Positions 11,952 to 21,083 of a stretch of 21,083 bases of DNA are shown here, piece by piece. Positions within the stretch are counted from its first letter, which is position 1. The number at the start of each line of letters is the position of its first letter. This DNA is from a virus. Both the position numbers and the translations under genes were made by a program. The stretch is from positions 1 to 21,083 of the IMG/VR virus record IMGVR_UViG_3300009488_000094. The stretch is one strand, 5' to 3'. The notes under the pieces are model-generated. The model worked only from the letters and a program-made list of their open reading frames with translations. It did not search any database and was not told the DNA's origin.

Positions 11952-12578
11952 ATGATACTCACGCCGCATTTTGTGATGCTACTGATGCCCAGAGCTGGCA
12001 GTACGTTCTGTGAAAGGGTGATTACACGCACAATGCCAACAGCAATGATGCACGCCACCCCTGCAATCTGGGCGACTATCGGTGGATTCACGAAGCACAA
12101 CTACCGTGGCGAGATGCCTCTTGAATATAAGTTTCATCAGGTTGTTGGAGTTAAACGTAACGTGCTGGATTTATGGGCTTCGTGGTATTTTTACGAGATG
12201 TGGGATGAGATGTTCGACAACAATGTCCCTTGGCCTGGTAATGTTTCCTTTGAGGAATATTACAGAACGGTAGAAAACACTGGGCGTAAACTCGTTAGGG
12301 CTAGTTCTGCTAGCGGATTCGCCAGGGATTTCTATGAAGCCATGTTTGGCAATGTTGGAGATGTCAGGTTTCTTGATTTCTCGAGCTTGAATCTTGAGGT
12401 TTACCGCCTGTTGAAAGAATATGGGCATGAAGACAAAAGGATTCTTGCGGAGCCGCCGATGAACGCTGATACGTGTAGAAATGGGCGGCATTGGGATAGT
12501 GTTATCAGCAAAGATATGGCTGAGTTGATTTTAGAAAGCGAAAAGGGTGGTATTTTGAATGGCATTGGAAGCGAATGA
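11952..12578 (+). CDS. Sulfotransferase-like protein, copy 1 (208 aa)
   Basis: This looks like a PAPS-dependent sulfotransferase, which moves a sulfuryl group to a hydroxyl or amine. Residues 12-19 (MPRAGSTF) match the 5'-phosphosulfate loop 'PR.GST', right after a first beta strand. KHN..R (48-52) is a candidate catalytic-His segment. VVGVKRNVLDLWASWYF (64-80) matches the 3'-phosphate motif, with Arg69 and Ser77 eight residues apart, as in known sulfotransferases. VRFLDFSSLN...LLKEYG (138-158) fits the later 'YEdL...L..flG' segment. At 208 aa it is shorter than most family members. The ribosome-binding site is weak. It is followed by a coupled paralogue, and all neighbours are structural. 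Substrate unknown. Confidence 0.68.
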   Translation: MILTPHFVMLLMPRAGSTFCERVITRTMPTAMMHATPAIWATIGGFTKHNYRGEMPLEYKFHQVVGVKRNVLDLWASWYFYEMWDEMFDNNVPWPGNVSFEEYYRTVENTGRKLVRASSASGFARDFYEAMFGNVGDVRFLDFSSLNLEVYRLLKEYGHEDKRILAEPPMNADTCRNGRHWDSVISKDMAELILESEKGGILNGIGSE

Positions 12579-13126
12579 TACTCACACCCCACTTTGTCCT
12601 TTTGCAGTTTCCAAGGACTGCTACGCGGTTTTGTAGAAGCGTGATTGCAGACAGAATGCCAAAAGCCAATGAGTATTGGGGCGACGGCCCTTGGGATAAG
12701 CACAATCACCGCTGTGACATTCCTCCAGAATGGAAGGATCTCCCGGTTGTTGGTGTGGAACGTGATGTGCTCGACCTCTGGGCCTCATGGTATTACGCCG
12801 GGATAGCGATAAACGAAACAACCTTTGAGGACTATTACCGGCGCATCAATGAAATCGGGGGGAACGTCAAGCAGGTGAGCAAAGGCACTGGCGGGTTCAT
12901 GCGTAAGTATCGTCATGCCATGTTCAGGAACGGACAAGACAATATTGATGATGTGTTATTTCTCGATTTTAAAAAGTTGAACCAGGAGATTTACTTGCTC
13001 TTAAAAGGATACGGACATAACGATTCAAGCATCCTCGAATCTCCGCCTCTGGAAGTGGGAGTTGAGCGGGCAGGCAAACCTTGGGAGGGGATTATCTCAC
13101 CATTGATGGCCGGGTTGATTCTGTAA
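12575..13126 (+). CDS. Sulfotransferase-like protein, copy 2, altered PSB loop (183 aa)
   Basis: This is a clear paralogue of the preceding gene, overlapping its stop (ATGA) with GGAAG upstream. The first eight residues are identical (MILTPHFV). The 3'-phosphate motif VVGVERDVLDLWASWYY keeps Arg63 and Ser71 at the eight-residue spacing. KHNHR (42-46) and FLDFKKLN...LLKGYGH (129-148) are also kept. The phosphosulfate loop reads FPRTATRF (12-19): Gly16 is Ala and Thr18 is Arg compared with copy 1, so donor binding may be changed or lost. It ends in LIL-stop where copy 1 continues LILESEK; the stop TAA aligns with a GAA codon. It may be active, structural, or decaying. Confidence 0.62.
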   Translation: MILTPHFVLLQFPRTATRFCRSVIADRMPKANEYWGDGPWDKHNHRCDIPPEWKDLPVVGVERDVLDLWASWYYAGIAINETTFEDYYRRINEIGGNVKQVSKGTGGFMRKYRHAMFRNGQDNIDDVLFLDFKKLNQEIYLLLKGYGHNDSSILESPPLEVGVERAGKPWEGIISPLMAGLIL

Positions 13127-14259: not shown

Positions 14260-14388
14260 ATGGCTGTTAACAAAGGCATACTGACTTCACGAGACATCGG
14301 CGGGCCTGCTAAGGAAGCGGGCGAAGGGAAGAACCCCGACAAGCGGCGTAAGTACAACTTCAGGAAAACCCCCAGGAAGAAGAAATAA
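14260..14388 (+). CDS. Small very basic protein (42 aa)
   Basis: The ATG follows the previous stop directly (TAGATG), with GAGG 7 nt upstream, and the stop overlaps the next start (TAATG). The product is a 42-aa protein rich in Lys and Arg, ending in KYNFRKTPRKKK, with a Gly-rich middle. It is probably disordered until bound. Basic mini-proteins of this kind recur in phage neck regions (see also 18931). Function is unknown; DNA or capsid contact is a guess. Confidence 0.65.
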   Translation: MAVNKGILTSRDIGGPAKEAGEGKNPDKRRKYNFRKTPRKKK

Positions 14389-16619
14389 TGGCAGCCGCTA
14401 TTCAGACTTACGAACTGCAATTGCTTTCGCTAGTGGGCGAAGCCTTGGCTGGCGATCTTAACCTTGCTACTGCCGACCTGGACGACGCTGCAAGTTATGC
14501 TGTGCGAAATATTGTCTCAGGTCTTCCGCTAAGGCTTCTGGAGCACATGGGGGCGACGAATGCTTTAACCGCCGGTACTGGGGGGGTGGCGATTACGACC
14601 AACAAGATTCTGGGTGTTACTCGCGTTGATGCCAATGGAATCATCCGTCCGGCCCGTAAGGTTCCTTATGTTTTAGAGGAAAGATTAGAAGACACAAGCG
14701 ATTTACTGTACGCCCCGCCAACTGACCCAGCGTGGTATCCAAAGGATGGCAAAGTGTACGTTAAGCCTGATCCTACAACTGCTCAGACAGCGGCTGTTTC
14801 AGCCGTGTCTTATCCCACTATAGATGCCAGTGTTGATTCGACAGTCGCTGGTTTGCCAGACGAATTAGAACCCCTAGTTGTACTGGGGATGTTGATATGG
14901 GTCAAGTTAAGGGAAATGGGGCTTTCCAGGAGAAATTCCCAAACCGAACTTGAAGCGATAACCAGCTCGGGCTATCTGGCCGCCTTTGAAGGCGCTCTGC
15001 CTGTTTTTGTAGTCCCGGCGGAGCCGGATTTGCCGACCCTGATACTGGTGCCAATGAATCAAATCCCGACTCTTTCACTGTCGAGTGCAACAGATAGCTG
15101 GCCGACACTTACCCTTTCACCAAGTATTGTCCTGCCGTCATTGACGTTACCAACGATGGGAGACTTACCCGCTTATGTTAGTCCCGATATAGGTACAGCC
15201 GTGGGAACTCTATCTATCACGAGTAAAACTATAACCGACCCGGGGACTCTAACATTGCCGAATGATATAGTCCTTCCGGCTCTATCTCTAACTACTGCCC
15301 CTACATTTACCGATCTGGATTTGTCGGGGGTAAGCGTTCCCAGTGCGGTATTCTCGTATGAATCGGCTGGGGTTGAACCGGATGATACGATCACTGTAAC
15401 AGCTCCGCTGCCAGCATACGATGGGCCAACGGCTTTTACCTATGACACTACCCATACTGCCGATGCTTTGACACAGGCTCAGGAGATGATGGATGATAGC
15501 GGGATAGGGTCTAGTGACGTGGAGGCATATATTGACACATCTAAGCATTTGGACCAAGCCCGTGTTGGAATAGATGCCATAGGTATGGAACTGAGGCGAG
15601 CTCAGACATCTATTCAGGATCAACAAGTTCAACTTCAGGATGTTGTTGAAAAGATACGTGAGGCTTTAGGGAAGTTTAACGGTGGGATCGCTGTATATCA
15701 GGCTGCACTAGCGAAGGAAGAGGCAGAAGCTCGGGTCGATGTTCAGGCTTACACTGCTAAGATGCAGGATAATAGGAATAACCTTGAAGAGCAGATAGGC
15801 CAGTACCGAGGCGATGTAGATAAATATCAGGCTAGGGTTAATGCTGTCGTTACGGAATGGGTGTCTGAGGAAGTACAGTTCAAACTTCAGAAATGGCAGT
15901 CTCAGGTTCAATCGGAGATAGGGGAGTTCAGGGAAAGATTCAATTCTGTAGTTAACAAGTACCAAGCCGAATCTAACGCCAAGATAAATGAACATCGGGC
16001 AAAAGTTGAGCGTGTCATTCGGGAGTTTGAGGTTGAGATGAGAGCCGATGTTTCTGAATGGACTGAGCAGAAAAAGGCCGACCTGCAGAAGCTCTCGGCG
16101 GATATTCAGGGAGCACTGGGGAAACATCAGAACTCGGTAAATGCCGTCATAAATCAATTCCGTGAACTGTCTACTTCTGTGGTAAATGAATTTCAGGCAA
16201 AGGCAACTCCTCAGATTCAACAGTATATTGCTATTACTGGCGCAGAGGTAGCAGAGCACAGATCAAAGGTTGAAGCATACCTGAATGAACTCAGAACTCT
16301 TAGGGATTCCGAGATCGGGGAGTTCCAACAGAAGTCTGCCGCTTACACAAATGAGTATCAGGCCAAGAACACAGCACTTATCAGTGAGAAACAAACTGAA
16401 TCAAGGGCACTTATTGATAAATATGCGGCCCTGTTAAATGCAGATGTGCAGAAATTTAACGGCAAACTGGCGAAAGCAAGGTCCTATCTGGAAGAGGCGC
16501 AAATCAGGCTGGCGACAATGCAGAGTTTCGACCAGAAGAGCATCGCGGCCATGAACGAGGCGAAGGCGCTTCAGGCCGAATTTGACAAAAAACTAGAAGG
16601 ATATATTAAACAGTTCTAG
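14388..16619 (+). CDS. Head-tail adaptor fused to beta repeats and a hendecad coiled coil (743 aa)
   Basis: The N-terminal part (about 1-205) resembles head-tail adaptor proteins: a helical start, VYVKPDPT (123-130), and LPDELEPLVVLGMLIWVKLREMG (split over 156-178). Residues 215-310 carry repeated strand motifs of the form P-T-L-T-L (starting at 216, 227, 239, 250, 285, 297). From about 380 to the end is one long helix region. Anchors F514 to F690 fall every 11 residues with no break, preceded by Y480-W491 and W503-F514. Pure hendecads favour a straight or slightly right-handed coiled coil. The whole looks like a neck protein bearing a long fibre or whisker. TAATG overlap with the previous gene. 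No frameshift. Function is inferred. Confidence 0.7.
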   Translation: MAAAIQTYELQLLSLVGEALAGDLNLATADLDDAASYAVRNIVSGLPLRLLEHMGATNALTAGTGGVAITTNKILGVTRVDANGIIRPARKVPYVLEERLEDTSDLLYAPPTDPAWYPKDGKVYVKPDPTTAQTAAVSAVSYPTIDASVDSTVAGLPDELEPLVVLGMLIWVKLREMGLSRRNSQTELEAITSSGYLAAFEGALPVFVVPAEPDLPTLILVPMNQIPTLSLSSATDSWPTLTLSPSIVLPSLTLPTMGDLPAYVSPDIGTAVGTLSITSKTITDPGTLTLPNDIVLPALSLTTAPTFTDLDLSGVSVPSAVFSYESAGVEPDDTITVTAPLPAYDGPTAFTYDTTHTADALTQAQEMMDDSGIGSSDVEAYIDTSKHLDQARVGIDAIGMELRRAQTSIQDQQVQLQDVVEKIREALGKFNGGIAVYQAALAKEEAEARVDVQAYTAKMQDNRNNLEEQIGQYRGDVDKYQARVNAVVTEWVSEEVQFKLQKWQSQVQSEIGEFRERFNSVVNKYQAESNAKINEHRAKVERVIREFEVEMRADVSEWTEQKKADLQKLSADIQGALGKHQNSVNAVINQFRELSTSVVNEFQAKATPQIQQYIAITGAEVAEHRSKVEAYLNELRTLRDSEIGEFQQKSAAYTNEYQAKNTALISEKQTESRALIDKYAALLNADVQKFNGKLAKARSYLEEAQIRLATMQSFDQKSIAAMNEAKALQAEFDKKLEGYIKQF
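15927..16457 (+). repeat. 33-bp / 11-residue periodic coding repeat
   Basis: Within the 743-aa protein, 17 anchor residues (F514, Y525, H536, F547, W558, L569, H580, F591, F602, Y613, H624, L635, F646, Y657, K668, Y679, F690) fall at exact 11-residue steps. A working consensus is [aromatic]-Q-x-K-x-x-A-x-[VI]-x-[EK]. DNA copies have diverged too far to be simple tandem repeats, so the periodicity is kept at protein level. Confidence 0.85.
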
Positions 16620-16631
16620 GAGGAGTTAATA

Positions 16632-17156
16632 ATGGCAGCGACTTATAAAGTCAATTTTGCAGTTTCATGTACCCCGGTTGAAATACCGGCAGTTGAATAT
16701 GGGACTGCACAGGAGCAGATTTCCAGTGAGGTTGGCAAGTCACTGGGTGGCAGCGGCTCTATTGCGATGGCTGACTTCGCAGGCGGGGCGGCTGTCCAAG
16801 GCTACAACGATCAGACGGTCAACTACTTGGAGTGTGTGGATAACAGTTCAACTCAAATATCAAGCGAAACAACTGCTAAGTTTGTGTTTATTAAGAACAC
16901 CGGATACTTATTCAGTAGCGCCACTGTCCTTGGGGCGGCCCTGGCCGATCATTTGGTTAGTGTTACGGCTGAGGGGGGTACAGACACGGTTATCCTTGCT
17001 ACATTAAATGCTGGAGAGGCAGTTATATTTAAGGCTGAGGAGGTATCTAATCTCCCGATAAACTGCACTTATATCAAGGTAAGGACTTATGAATCTGATG
17101 GGTCTGCGGCTGGCGCAACGGATCATCTAGCAGTTGAATATTTGGTTACTGACTAA
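16632..17156 (+). CDS. Beta-rich virion protein (174 aa)
   Basis: AGGAGGAG lies about 7 nt before the ATG, one of the best sites in the window. The product is rich in Val, Thr, Ala and Gly with no charged helices. Its C-terminal half (KFVFIKNTGYL, LATLNAGEAVIFKA, LAVEYLVTD) shows the same order of strands as the protein at 13897 (IYLHNLD, LKLKAGEEVFLRWG, LEYMLIED), suggesting a shared fold. I infer a neck or surface beta-sandwich protein. Its stop overlaps the next start (TAATG). Confidence 0.65.
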   Translation: MAATYKVNFAVSCTPVEIPAVEYGTAQEQISSEVGKSLGGSGSIAMADFAGGAAVQGYNDQTVNYLECVDNSSTQISSETTAKFVFIKNTGYLFSSATVLGAALADHLVSVTAEGGTDTVILATLNAGEAVIFKAEEVSNLPINCTYIKVRTYESDGSAAGATDHLAVEYLVTD

Positions 17157-17458
17157 TGAGCGAGAATGCCAAAAGTTTCGCACAAATCTTTCAGGAAATC
17201 CAACAGGTTTTCCCTGATGCAGGCGAAGCTTACGTTAGGCGGATTTTGGATAATATCATTAACGAAATCTCAATAGAAAGAAACCTAAAGAAGAAAGAGA
17301 CCCCCATCAATTCGGTAGACGGGCAGATGTTCTACGATTTAAGCGTCTTGGGGCCTGCCAAGATATTCCGGGTGGACTTTATGAACGACGATGGAGACTA
17401 TGTCCTGATCCCTAGACTTTTGGACGGGGAGTTCATCCGCAAATGGGATATTACGTAG
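17156..17458 (+). CDS. Head-tail adaptor-like protein, N-terminal part ending at in-frame TAG (100 aa)
   Basis: This is the first half of what looks like one adaptor protein. It has an N-terminal helix pair (FAQIFQEIQQVFPDAGEAYVRRILDNI, broken over residues 8-34). Then comes VDGQMFYDL (54-62) and a strand set with FRVDF...YVLIPRLLDG, which in typical adaptors runs straight into 'W.I.gd.l'. Here it stops at TAG (17456-17458). The next frame at 17465 is in the same phase and supplies the missing half. Upstream coupling is a TAATG overlap. It may be a stand-alone short protein, a readthrough product, or one half of a split gene. Confidence 0.65.
   Translation: MSENAKSFAQIFQEIQQVFPDAGEAYVRRILDNIINEISIERNLKKKETPINSVDGQMFYDLSVLGPAKIFRVDFMNDDGDYVLIPRLLDGEFIRKWDIT
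17456..17458 (+). other. Single in-frame amber codon splitting the adaptor
   Basis: The frame from 17156 to 17881 is continuous except for this TAG. The codons around it read ACG TAG TTA GTT ATG. Other genes here also end in TAG with normal starts behind them (619, 11865, 13900, 14259, 16619), so general TAG reassignment is unlikely. Readthrough, suppression, a true split, or a sequence error remain possible. Confidence 0.7.
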
Positions 17459-17464
17459 TTAGTT

Positions 17465-17881
17465 ATGGCAAGTTCAATCACCAGGCCGGACAATAAACTC
17501 TCCTGGTTCATATCGGGGGATAGGCTGGCGGTTGCCACTAAAAGCAGTGGCTCGTGGGCAGCAATAAATGAAACCGTTACTGATGGGATACTGGTTCACT
17601 ACTATGGGGAGCCTGATCCCATACCGTATGACCAGCCCGAACAGTACCCCGACATTCATCCGGCGCTGCATTCGGCACTGGTGGATTATGTCAAGGGGAA
17701 GCTCTTTCTGGACAGAGCCGGACAGTTTGCCCAAGTCCCTGAGACTGCCGCTGTGTACCTGAGCCTTTCCAGAGAACACATGCGAGTTTGGAAGAACATG
17801 GTAAACCGGAGACTGCCGTCTCTGACAACTAAAATAGCGGGGCCTAGATTTATGGTGCCGCTACCAATTAACAGCAGATAA
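17465..17881 (+). CDS. Head-tail adaptor-like protein, C-terminal part (138 aa)
   Basis: The frame continues that of the preceding gene after TAG-TTA-GTT. The ATG at 17465 has no Shine-Dalgarno nearby, so reinitiation or readthrough would be needed. The content matches the second half of neck adaptor proteins: LSWFISGDRLAVATK, ILVHYYGEPDPIPYD, then a helix starting PDIHPALHSALVDYVKGKLFLD (split over residues about 62-84). With the upstream 100 aa and three codons it would make a protein of about 241 aa, a normal adaptor length. Confidence 0.65.
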   Translation: MASSITRPDNKLSWFISGDRLAVATKSSGSWAAINETVTDGILVHYYGEPDPIPYDQPEQYPDIHPALHSALVDYVKGKLFLDRAGQFAQVPETAAVYLSLSREHMRVWKNMVNRRLPSLTTKIAGPRFMVPLPINSR

Positions 17882-17890
17882 GGAGATATT

Positions 17891-18259
17891 GTGCCTGCTT
17901 TAGCAGATATAGGACGGGTGAAAGTTGATGTGCGTCACCCAAATTTCTGGAAGGCGACATTTAATACGGCAACGGCTCAAACTGCAAAAGAGCTTGTAGC
18001 AGCACCTAGCGCAGGGGAGCATCTTGTTTTGACAGACTTTTCAATGAGCGCCGAAGGGACGGCCAATACAATTAAGTTGGTTGAAAAAACCGCAAGCCAA
18101 ACAGATATTGTTGAAGTAATCTATCTTGCAGATAATGGTAACCTGTCACACAATTTTAAGATGCCGATGGCTCTTTCAAGTGCAGTGAATTTAGGGTTTG
18201 TCTCAAGCGTATCGGATAATCACAGTGTTACTGTCTCTGGTTATACTGAACCTGATTAA
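17891..18259 (+). CDS. Beta-rich virion protein, tandem copy A (122 aa)
   Basis: It starts at GTG with AAGGAG 5 nt upstream. The product is beta-rich with a conserved-looking core: ALADIGR, RHPNFW, EHLVLTDFSMS, NTIKLVE, PMALSSAVNLGF, HSVTVSGYTE. It is paralogous to the next gene, with about 79 of 121 aligned positions identical by hand count. I infer a small jelly-roll or beta-sandwich virion protein of the neck or tail; no enzymatic motif is seen. Confidence 0.7.
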   Translation: MPALADIGRVKVDVRHPNFWKATFNTATAQTAKELVAAPSAGEHLVLTDFSMSAEGTANTIKLVEKTASQTDIVEVIYLADNGNLSHNFKMPMALSSAVNLGFVSSVSDNHSVTVSGYTEPD

Positions 18260-18271
18260 AGGAGAATAATA

Positions 18272-18634
18272 ATGGCTTTAGCAGACGTGGGTCGAACAAA
18301 AGTTGATAATCGTCACCCAAATTTCTGGAGGTATACAATTAATACCTCTGCGGCTCAAACCTCTACAGAGATGGTAGCGGCTCCAGGTACTGGCAAGCAC
18401 CTGGTTTTAACGGACGTAATTATGAGTGCGCTTACGGCCAATTCGATAAAACTGGTTGAAGATACCACAAGCGCCGTGGACATCCATGAGATTGTCTATC
18501 TGGGTACTACCGGGAATTACTCACATAGTTTTGCGATACCAATGGCACTATCAAGCAACGTGAATCTGGGATTCACGTCATCGGCTTCTGCGGCCCATTC
18601 GGTGACTGTAACGGGATTTACAGAGGTTGATTAA
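18272..18634 (+). CDS. Beta-rich virion protein, tandem copy B (120 aa)
   Basis: AAAGGAG lies about 7 nt before the ATG, 12 nt after copy A. The two share ALAD.GR.KVD, RHPNFW, HLVLTD, IKLVE, PMALSS.VNLGF and HSVTV.G.TE; a stretch of 19 identical bases spans the RHPNFW codons. Differences sit mainly in loop-like parts (NTSAAQTSTEM, TTSAVDIHE). Tandem duplication followed by divergence is the simplest history; both keep good ribosome-binding sites, so both are probably made. Confidence 0.7.
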   Translation: MALADVGRTKVDNRHPNFWRYTINTSAAQTSTEMVAAPGTGKHLVLTDVIMSALTANSIKLVEDTTSAVDIHEIVYLGTTGNYSHSFAIPMALSSNVNLGFTSSASAAHSVTVTGFTEVD

Positions 18635-19703: not shown

Positions 19704-21083
19704 ATGGCTTTCCAATATGAAAAGATACCAGGATTTAAAGCGGGGCTTATCAACAGACCCGACCCGCGAGATATACGGCTGACCGATCCAAGGGGGTTAT
19801 CCAAGGCCCAGAACATCTCCCTGGATATAGGTGGCAAAATAAGGACTATCGGCGGGCTGGAGGATTTTACCAAGGTTGACGGGGCTACCGCACTTACCCA
19901 GACGGCTAAGATTTGTCCGGGTTCGGGGCTATTTCCCTATGGGAGCGATCACTGGAAGGGGACTATAACCGCGACCGATCTATTGGATGCCGGGACTGCT
20001 GTTTCATTAACAGGAGAAGCTGACAATGTTGGAGATTGGGTAACTGCAGGCGGTGGTGCGCCAGTACTCGATTCTGTAGATGACACGGATAGTGGCGCTA
20101 TTGCAACCAATGGTGGCGATTGGATTTTTAAACTTACTAGTGCCCAAAATGTTGGAATAAAAGAAACTGCAACCACGGTTGTAGGGCAGGGATATTTATG
20201 TTCTGTCGATGTATATAATGTGGACGCCCCATACGTTTATTTAACTGTTGGCACGTCCAGTGGAGCTCCCGTGCAAACACCACATGATACTACACAAGGG
20301 TCTTGGTTCACTCTACAGATTGAATATGTAGCTGTTACCACCAGCACGAGAGTTGATCTTACTGCAGCTATGAGTGCGGCTCAAACAATATATGCGGACG
20401 ATTTTTATTTAACCAAAATACCTACTGTTGATTTGGACACTAACTGGGTGGCATTGGCTGATGCTGCCAATGCACAAGTGGATTTGTATAATGTCAATGA
20501 TGATGCTTTAGGCTTTGTGCCAGCTCTGTTAGACTTTGGGACTGTATTCTCTTATGTTGGCACTGCTGATAAAATCAATTTTCCGACAACTAAGACAATT
20601 ACCGATGCCAATAGTGAGTTTCTAAACCAAGGGATTCGATCTGGGGATATTCGTGTTATTTCCGGTTGCACTAGCGAGACGGCAAACAATATAATGTTTG
20701 TTGTTGAGCATGTAACGGCAGGGACTATTACAGCACGAGGCAATCCCTTTACTGTGGCCGCTGATGAAGATGGAACTGTAACCCTTACCAAGTACAATCC
20801 AACGGCATTTCACTACGTCAACGAGGCTTTGAGGGCGAGTCCTGCTAACGGGGGAATCGCACTAAGGCCCAAACATTACTCTTTTGCAGATCGAATTCAT
20901 TTTGAGGGGGCGGGTTCATCTGAAAGGAAGTTCGCCAGCTGGTACGCAAACGATGTTGGCCCTGTTCCCCCCACTGATATTGCTTTTGATGCGGCTGTCG
21001 ATAGTGGACTTTCCGGCAATTTGACCGCTGGCGCAGGTTGGGAAGTTGGCATGACGGTAACTGCTGATGACGGCGAATGGCCT
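19704..21083 (+). CDS. Tail nozzle/stabilisation-like protein with CBM-like insertion, partial (460+ aa)
   Basis: The frame opens at ATG 19704 (AGGG 8 nt upstream) and has no stop to the window edge, so the gene is cut off. The N-terminus (GFKAGLINRP...GLSKAQNISLDIGGKIRTIGGLEDF, residues 10-55) matches the start of podovirus nozzle or DNA-stabilisation proteins ('N...d..G.lr...G'). Residues about 92-238 look like an inserted beta jelly roll: GDW, YLCSVDVYNVDAPYVYLTVG (broken at 164-183), SWFTLQIEYVA, and the closing IYADDFYL (229-236), a typical CBM4/9-like end. From about 278 more beta modules follow (RSGDIRVISG..., VEHVTAGTITARG). Role inferred: neck closure with a glycan- or surface-binding add-on. 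Confidence 0.65.
   Translation, partial: MAFQYEKIPGFKAGLINRPDPRDIRLTDPRGLSKAQNISLDIGGKIRTIGGLEDFTKVDGATALTQTAKICPGSGLFPYGSDHWKGTITATDLLDAGTAVSLTGEADNVGDWVTAGGGAPVLDSVDDTDSGAIATNGGDWIFKLTSAQNVGIKETATTVVGQGYLCSVDVYNVDAPYVYLTVGTSSGAPVQTPHDTTQGSWFTLQIEYVAVTTSTRVDLTAAMSAAQTIYADDFYLTKIPTVDLDTNWVALADAANAQVDLYNVNDDALGFVPALLDFGTVFSYVGTADKINFPTTKTITDANSEFLNQGIRSGDIRVISGCTSETANNIMFVVEHVTAGTITARGNPFTVAADEDGTVTLTKYNPTAFHYVNEALRASPANGGIALRPKHYSFADRIHFEGAGSSERKFASWYANDVGPVPPTDIAFDAAVDSGLSGNLTAGAGWEVGMTVTADDGEWP

Follow-up and report, generated by a model that had tools for sequence, protein, structure and literature searches.

The 743-aa protein encoded at positions 14388-16619 (plus strand) of the window, by which we mean the whole 21,083-base stretch of viral DNA analysed here, belongs to the adaptor family, judging from its sequence and from the predicted fold of a relative, and it probably carries a rod, folded back into four legs of equal length, inserted in the adaptor of an uncultured short-tailed phage. 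Blocks shared with the rest of the family are separated in the chain by two repeat arrays whose lengths are locked to each other, and in the relatives the helical array is symmetric about a conserved midpoint.

The 743-aa protein and its phage

Genes for a terminase, a portal like that of P22 (PF16510 P22_portal, E 2.4e-17), a major capsid protein of the SU10 kind (PF17236 SU10_MCP, E 3.9e-11) and, probably, a nozzle protein are present in the window, which is a virus record. The portal, the capsid protein and the nozzle-like gene indicate that, by its gene content, the source phage is short-tailed, and the SU10_adaptor domain described below is accompanied in the window by the portal, capsid and terminase genes of such a phage. 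The putative nozzle gene had no Pfam match and was named from the resemblance of its N-terminus to a 955-aa nozzle-like ORF of G006, a 57.9-kb relative. G006, whose genes were named in this analysis from N-terminal resemblance, also has large internal proteins and three separate fibre-like genes, so the adaptor-rod protein is not the sole appendage candidate. A long-tail gene set (tail tube, chaperones, tip) was recognised in neither the window nor G006. The features of the 743-aa protein and of the genes downstream are as follows.

14388..14999, plus strand: adaptor N-domain, residues 1-204, with helices, beta hairpins and alpha3 (PF24175 SU10_adaptor; hhalign)
15000..15422, plus strand: strand-like array, residues ~205-345 (PxLxL / LP repeats in the sequence)
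15423..15686, plus strand: conserved block between the arrays, residues ~346-433 (DALTQAQEMMDD ... ELRRAQ ... KFNGG)
15687..16484, plus strand: hendecad helix array, residues ~434-699 (period analysis, comb, AF2 helices)
15927..16457, plus strand: run F514-F690 of the earlier note, 16 steps of 11 (comb test)
16455..16616, plus strand: conserved C-terminal block, residues 690-743 (hhalign; adaptor matches of the relative L026)
17156..17458, plus strand: putative second adaptor, first half, 100 aa (position; similarity to ORFs of L013, L004 and L083)
17465..17881, plus strand: putative second adaptor, second half, 138 aa (weak PF24175 match; layout common to relatives)
19704..21083, plus strand: probable nozzle protein, running past the window end

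The PF24175 SU10_adaptor profile scored 28.5 bits on the whole protein and 29.9 bits on its first 442 residues (curated cut-off 27), which agrees with the adaptor-like N-terminus proposed in the earlier note and makes the neck location proposed with it probable. Comparison with the family profiles by hhalign gave a probability of 99.3 (E 1.8e-20) for the N-domain, 98.9 (E 3.6e-17) for the block between the arrays and 98.2 (E 3.9e-14) for the C-terminal block. The protein ends with this last block, homologous to the family C-terminus, and no domain follows the coil; neither Pfam nor profile comparison of the window protein found a trimerisation or receptor-binding domain C-terminal to it.

The earlier note had described sixteen consecutive exact 11-residue steps from F514 to F690, and this run is real and far beyond chance. 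The F514 codon is located at 15927-15929 and the F690 codon at 16455-16457, a span of 176 residues (16 x 11). The best 17-tooth comb of step 11 collected 11 F/W/Y residues, against a mean of 4.2 when that region of the protein was shuffled 5,000 times (reached in 0/5,000); among the other steps between 5 and 16, none gave more than 5. The aromatic consensus given for the anchors stands for these 11 of the 17 positions (in order F,Y,H,F,W,L,H,F,F,Y,H,L,F,Y,K,Y,F), the rest being His (3), Leu (2) and Lys (1). Within the repeat, column 9 is I/V/L in 15/16 copies, column 7 is A/S/G in 14/16 and column 11 is E/K/Q in 16/16. Fourier analysis of the protein showed peaks at 3.65, 5.5 and 10.9-11 residues, the 11-residue peak of a hendecad among them, with further lags of 7 and 18. 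A long helical element with an 11-residue period is thereby supported, and the run has the extent quoted, but the helical array exceeds it, covering residues ~385-743. The two additional 11-residue steps claimed upstream of F514 were not recovered, as the actual spacing there is mixed (7, 11, 12 and 18).

Two tandem pairs of ORFs were also observed in the window. The ORFs at 11952-12578 and 12575-13126 are similar to each other, have no Pfam match and contain a PRxxSTxFC-like motif resembling a sulfotransferase P-loop; those at 17891-18259 and 18272-18634 (122 and 120 aa) are clearly related and probably encode small virion proteins.

Relatives of the adaptor protein

Relatives were obtained from IMG/VR (~60 loci, of which 38 entered the length-locking analysis and 33 the equal-arm analysis). 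The window protein alone retrieved one relative, and an alignment a second one of 1,211 aa; the latter, used as a query, retrieved L013, which as a single query gave 60 loci. The first alignments used as queries had found two loci only, and searching with one protein, a more typical family member, succeeded. No match to the window protein was found among INPHARED phages by tblastn, no relative was found in genome_contigs, and sequence searches of the PDB returned no relative, only apolipoprotein-like or chance matches. The INPHARED matches of the relatives were coils of Helicobacter prophages, which were rejected as kin as their N-termini are unrelated. One such prophage protein, of 675 aa (L005:11074-13101), has its own long 11-residue array of the EYNQNADxKLE type and an unrelated N-terminus.

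Family proteins range from 249 to 1211 aa. Profile comparison showed three blocks common to the window protein and the family, namely the N-domain, the inter-array block and the C-terminus; these are separated by two repeat arrays that vary in size. The first array is strand-like and made of LP motifs, with a commonest spacing of 10 residues in the family. The second is helical, with a period of 18 residues (7+11) in the main branch and of 11 residues in a branch comprising the window, L002, L004, L048, L052 and L061. The 249-aa relative, L072, kept the N-domain and the C-terminus, lacks both arrays and is the plain adaptor form.

Further domains were noted in some relatives. The N-domains of L043, L058, L061 and L074 have an extra domain of ~65-70 residues (TVTLSSTTGLQVGMLVTGTGIPNGTTI type) in the adaptor beta region, and the 1,211-aa protein of L004 (7998-11633) has a small domain (SVTVTHNSGFYPIVQVID...) within the strand array, which also stands alone in a 78-aa ORF of the same contig (L004:12618-12854). 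In the relative G003, a 3,007-aa ORF with helicase-like stretches (L019:3261-12284) is found among probable internal virion proteins.

Genomes of this family encode two adaptor-like proteins. The second is split into two ORFs in the window, L004, L013 and L083 (L004:7295-7998; L013:9800-10551; L083:13097-13860) and is a single fused ORF in L002 (8198-8998). At the split point, L004, L013 and L083 have a TAATG stop-start overlap, and in the window an ATG comes after an in-frame stop. The L013, L004 and L083 counterparts of the first half match PF24175 positions 1-80, and PF24175 is matched by the first half in 12/13 further genomes; the second half in the window matches positions 112-163 weakly (E 0.11). 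An error at the stop between the small ORFs was considered and rejected, the split being shared by other genomes.

Predicted fold of a relative

From three sequences, AF2 gave a model of the window protein with a pLDDT of 39, low-confidence helices at residues 375-569 and 587-742 and a strand-like array without regular secondary structure. The 560-aa relative L026, modelled as a monomer from 26 sequences, gave a mean pLDDT of 73. Its model has helices at 328-424 and 429-539 with a pLDDT of 85-90, separated by a break at 425-428 located exactly at a motif conserved in the family, and an LP array with a pLDDT of 72-83 in which no hydrogen-bonded strands are formed.

Comparison of the L026 model by VIA-align retrieved the adaptor-size chains of seven portal-tail complexes, those of cyanophage A4 (Z 11.3), Pa223 (10.8), GP4 (10.2), SU10 (9.4), Moo19 (9.2), VP1 (8.8) and KHP30 (8.6), although by the program's own note a Z of 8-11 is not high for helical models. 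All seven matches cover residues 1 to 541-560, which places the predicted adaptor fold in the N-domain plus the last helix, with the arrays inserted between them. The model contains the helix bundle with a beta insertion of this fold, and the lengths of the matched Moo19 and B2 chains agree with the adaptor length published for these phages, 234 (PMC11654681); the fold assigned to L026 rests on these several agreeing lines, not on Z alone. The model also matched the Smc arm chains 5nnv, 8i21 and 8i4v, which are antiparallel two-helix coils, suggesting that the two long helices of L026 are antiparallel, a hairpin deduced from the helix break and the structure matches without sight of the coordinates.

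We propose that the protein is an adaptor of the SU10/T7/P22 type whose bundle accommodates, between its last two helices, a very long rod of variable length. The chain would leave the bundle as the extended LP strand array, run out and come back, and then form a long helix that turns midway and rejoins the bundle to become its last helix, the role proposed for the C-terminal block. Since this helix must rejoin the bundle, every leg would start or end at the neck, and the four legs (two of strand, two of helix) would have to keep an equal axial length. The main-branch unit would be ~27 A, equivalent to 10 strand residues or 18 helix residues, and the 11-residue repeat of the window would be the helix repeat of one family branch.

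Aromatic markers every 11 residues are also known from tape measure proteins, with F/W at 11, 7/18 shifts and mixed 11-11-18 steps (PMC3271669). Those proteins resemble this family in having 11-residue aromatic units, fixed ends and a variable middle, and weak PHROG tape-measure matches occurred in some relatives. A tape-measure or ejection-type internal helical protein is nevertheless hardly credible here: the gene set is that of a short-tailed phage without siphovirus tail genes, an adaptor domain occupies both chain ends, a second, locked array is present, and relatives have separate large internal proteins.

Length locking and the proposed rod

Strand and helix lengths, measured with identical anchors in all members, were strongly correlated (n=38, r=0.989), with a slope of 1.61 helix residues per strand residue. 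The correlation was 0.997 in the 18-residue branch and 0.990 for independent contrasts on the N-domain tree, while the control, N-domain length, gave r=-0.16. The window lies near the regression line, with 212 strand residues and 343 helix residues where 325 are predicted. With 1.5 A taken as the rise per helical residue, the slope corresponds to ~2.4-2.8 A per strand residue, that is, a near-extended chain.

The locked strand array is left unexplained if the helices form an amphipathic, lipid-binding array of the apolipoprotein kind. Pfam Apolipoprotein (PF01442) did match the window protein (40.8 bits, E 2.6e-10) and, more strongly, L002 (64.8 bits, E 1.1e-17), but both scores are below the cut-off of 90 and a common 11-residue period can yield such scores; we give this reading a very small chance.

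In the main branch, a conserved break, KExAxxGxDVxxY, is found in the middle of the helix array, and the arms on its two sides have 87/86, 98/104, 134/136, 170/172 and 260/262 residues; a profile of the break gave the same placement with a clear margin. Three members of the 11-residue branch have another conserved motif, KYTAIEQVRM, at the midpoint, with arms of 132/124, 165/157 and 165/157. Over the members measured, the lengths of the two arms were correlated (n=33, r=0.973, slope 0.99), and the centre was within 0.45-0.55 of the helix-array length in 97% (32/33) of the members, L034 being an outlier with arms of 190 and 109. For the window and the two members closest to it, no position could be assigned to the helix turn, as the candidates 553-558, 570-586 and P608 were not distinguishable; every length difference between the window and these two relatives falls within window residues ~585-626. 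The fold-back of the window protein itself would thus be carried over from its relatives.

Comparison of closely related members showed that length changes occur in fours, although the gap positions inside repeats are uncertain and only the totals are firm. L052, 82% identical to L048, has 17 + 19 extra strand residues flanking the conserved centre and 33 + 33 extra helix residues flanking the midpoint motif; 33 helix residues equal 49.5 A, as do 18 extended residues at 2.75 A. The differences between L025 and L037 were 50 + 47 (strand) and 90 + 90 (helix), those between L026 and L021 were 20 + 20 and 36 + 32, and those between L026 and L031 were 10 + 10 and 11 + 18.

The exception was the pair L034:4997-7189 and L036:3650-6112 (78% identical), which differ by 34 strand residues (less 6) early in the strand array and by 61 helix residues late in the helix array, within a single arm. 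Both changes amount to ~92 A, so the strand-helix length match is kept while the equal-arm rule is broken. This pair is better suited by a one-way composite rod of ~51 nm in the window, in which the strand array would run from neck to tip and the helix array back, with a hinge midway. Such a rod predicts the same strand-helix locking, and the register of the 11-residue branch, which passes the midpoint without a shift, is consistent with it. However, it leaves unexplained the central position of the motif in 32/33 members and the indels in fours, and the AF2 helix break at the centre and the antiparallel-coil matches speak against it; we consider it unlikely. The equal helix arms and the indels in fours make the folded-back rod likelier than this one-way hairpin.

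The equal arms also bear on the fibre reading of the earlier note, taken here as a homotrimer of parallel chains, at the neck or tail, that forms a hendecad coiled coil. A long helix with an 11-residue period and an adaptor-like start would suit such a fibre. A plain parallel trimer ending in free space is made unlikely, however, by the C-terminal block, which belongs to the adaptor fold, by the equal helix arms about the conserved midpoint in relatives and by the upstream strand-like array, absent from the earlier note and length-locked to the helix array. The coil is followed by no trimerisation or receptor-binding domain, and G006 has its three other fibre-like genes; we regard a trimeric fibre as very improbable.

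In the folded-back rod, the 343 helical residues of the window, folded in two, would give a length of ~26 nm. The rod of 25-30 nm predicted in the earlier note is close to this figure, which is reached by folding back ~343 helical residues and not by extending 180. Rod length would range across the family from none to ~45 nm. There would be one rod per adaptor subunit and, as the SU10 adaptor forms a ring of 12 (PMC9509320), probably up to 12 rods per virion neck, by analogy. The rods may serve as spacers, as whisker-like neck appendages or as a sleeve beside the tail; with no binding domain visible, such roles are likelier than specific receptor binding. A deployable, measured neck arm, folded at rest with its elbow at the conserved midpoint, is a more speculative version that we think doubtful. 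Its proximal half would consist of the first strand leg and the second helix arm and its distal half, of equal length, of the second strand leg and the first helix arm; the inter-array block would be docked at the neck, and the arm would open to twice its length on host contact.

The SU10 adaptor gp11 (PF24175; PDB 7z47; PMC9509320) and the T7 and P22 adaptors belong to the same N-domain sequence family and are alike in the predicted fold of the N-domain plus last helix, and SU10 is also alike in genome context (portal and SU10-like capsid protein). Known adaptors of this type have ~200-235 aa, whereas here up to ~1,000 array residues precede the last helix. The nearest precedent is gp83 of the Pseudomonas phage DEV, a podophage adaptor whose helical bundle likewise contains an insertion; its insert is a lectin-like domain of 101 residues (PMC10925440), whereas here it would be a repetitive rod of variable length. 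DEV gp53, the N4 appendages and other neck fibres are also elongated neck appendages of short-tailed phages. These are separate trimeric proteins with receptor-binding ends, while the rod proposed here would be within the adaptor chain. The joint length variation of the strand and helix halves across ~40 relatives points to a neck appendage that is measured and folded back; as far as our literature search reached, no paper reports such an appendage or a repetitive rod in an adaptor.

If this reading is correct, a compact ring protein of ~200 residues became the base of a rod of zero to over 40 nm, in which two kinds of repeat keep exact step while the rod length varies. The locked arrays are a natural ruler with ~40 natural variants, in which 10 strand residues are set against 18 helix residues over ~27 A, and this strand-helix ruler would be of use to protein design and virology. 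The folded-back rod would also suggest where hundreds of residues annotated as coiled-coil or hypothetical probably lie and how they are built, and would make a clear prediction for electron microscopy.
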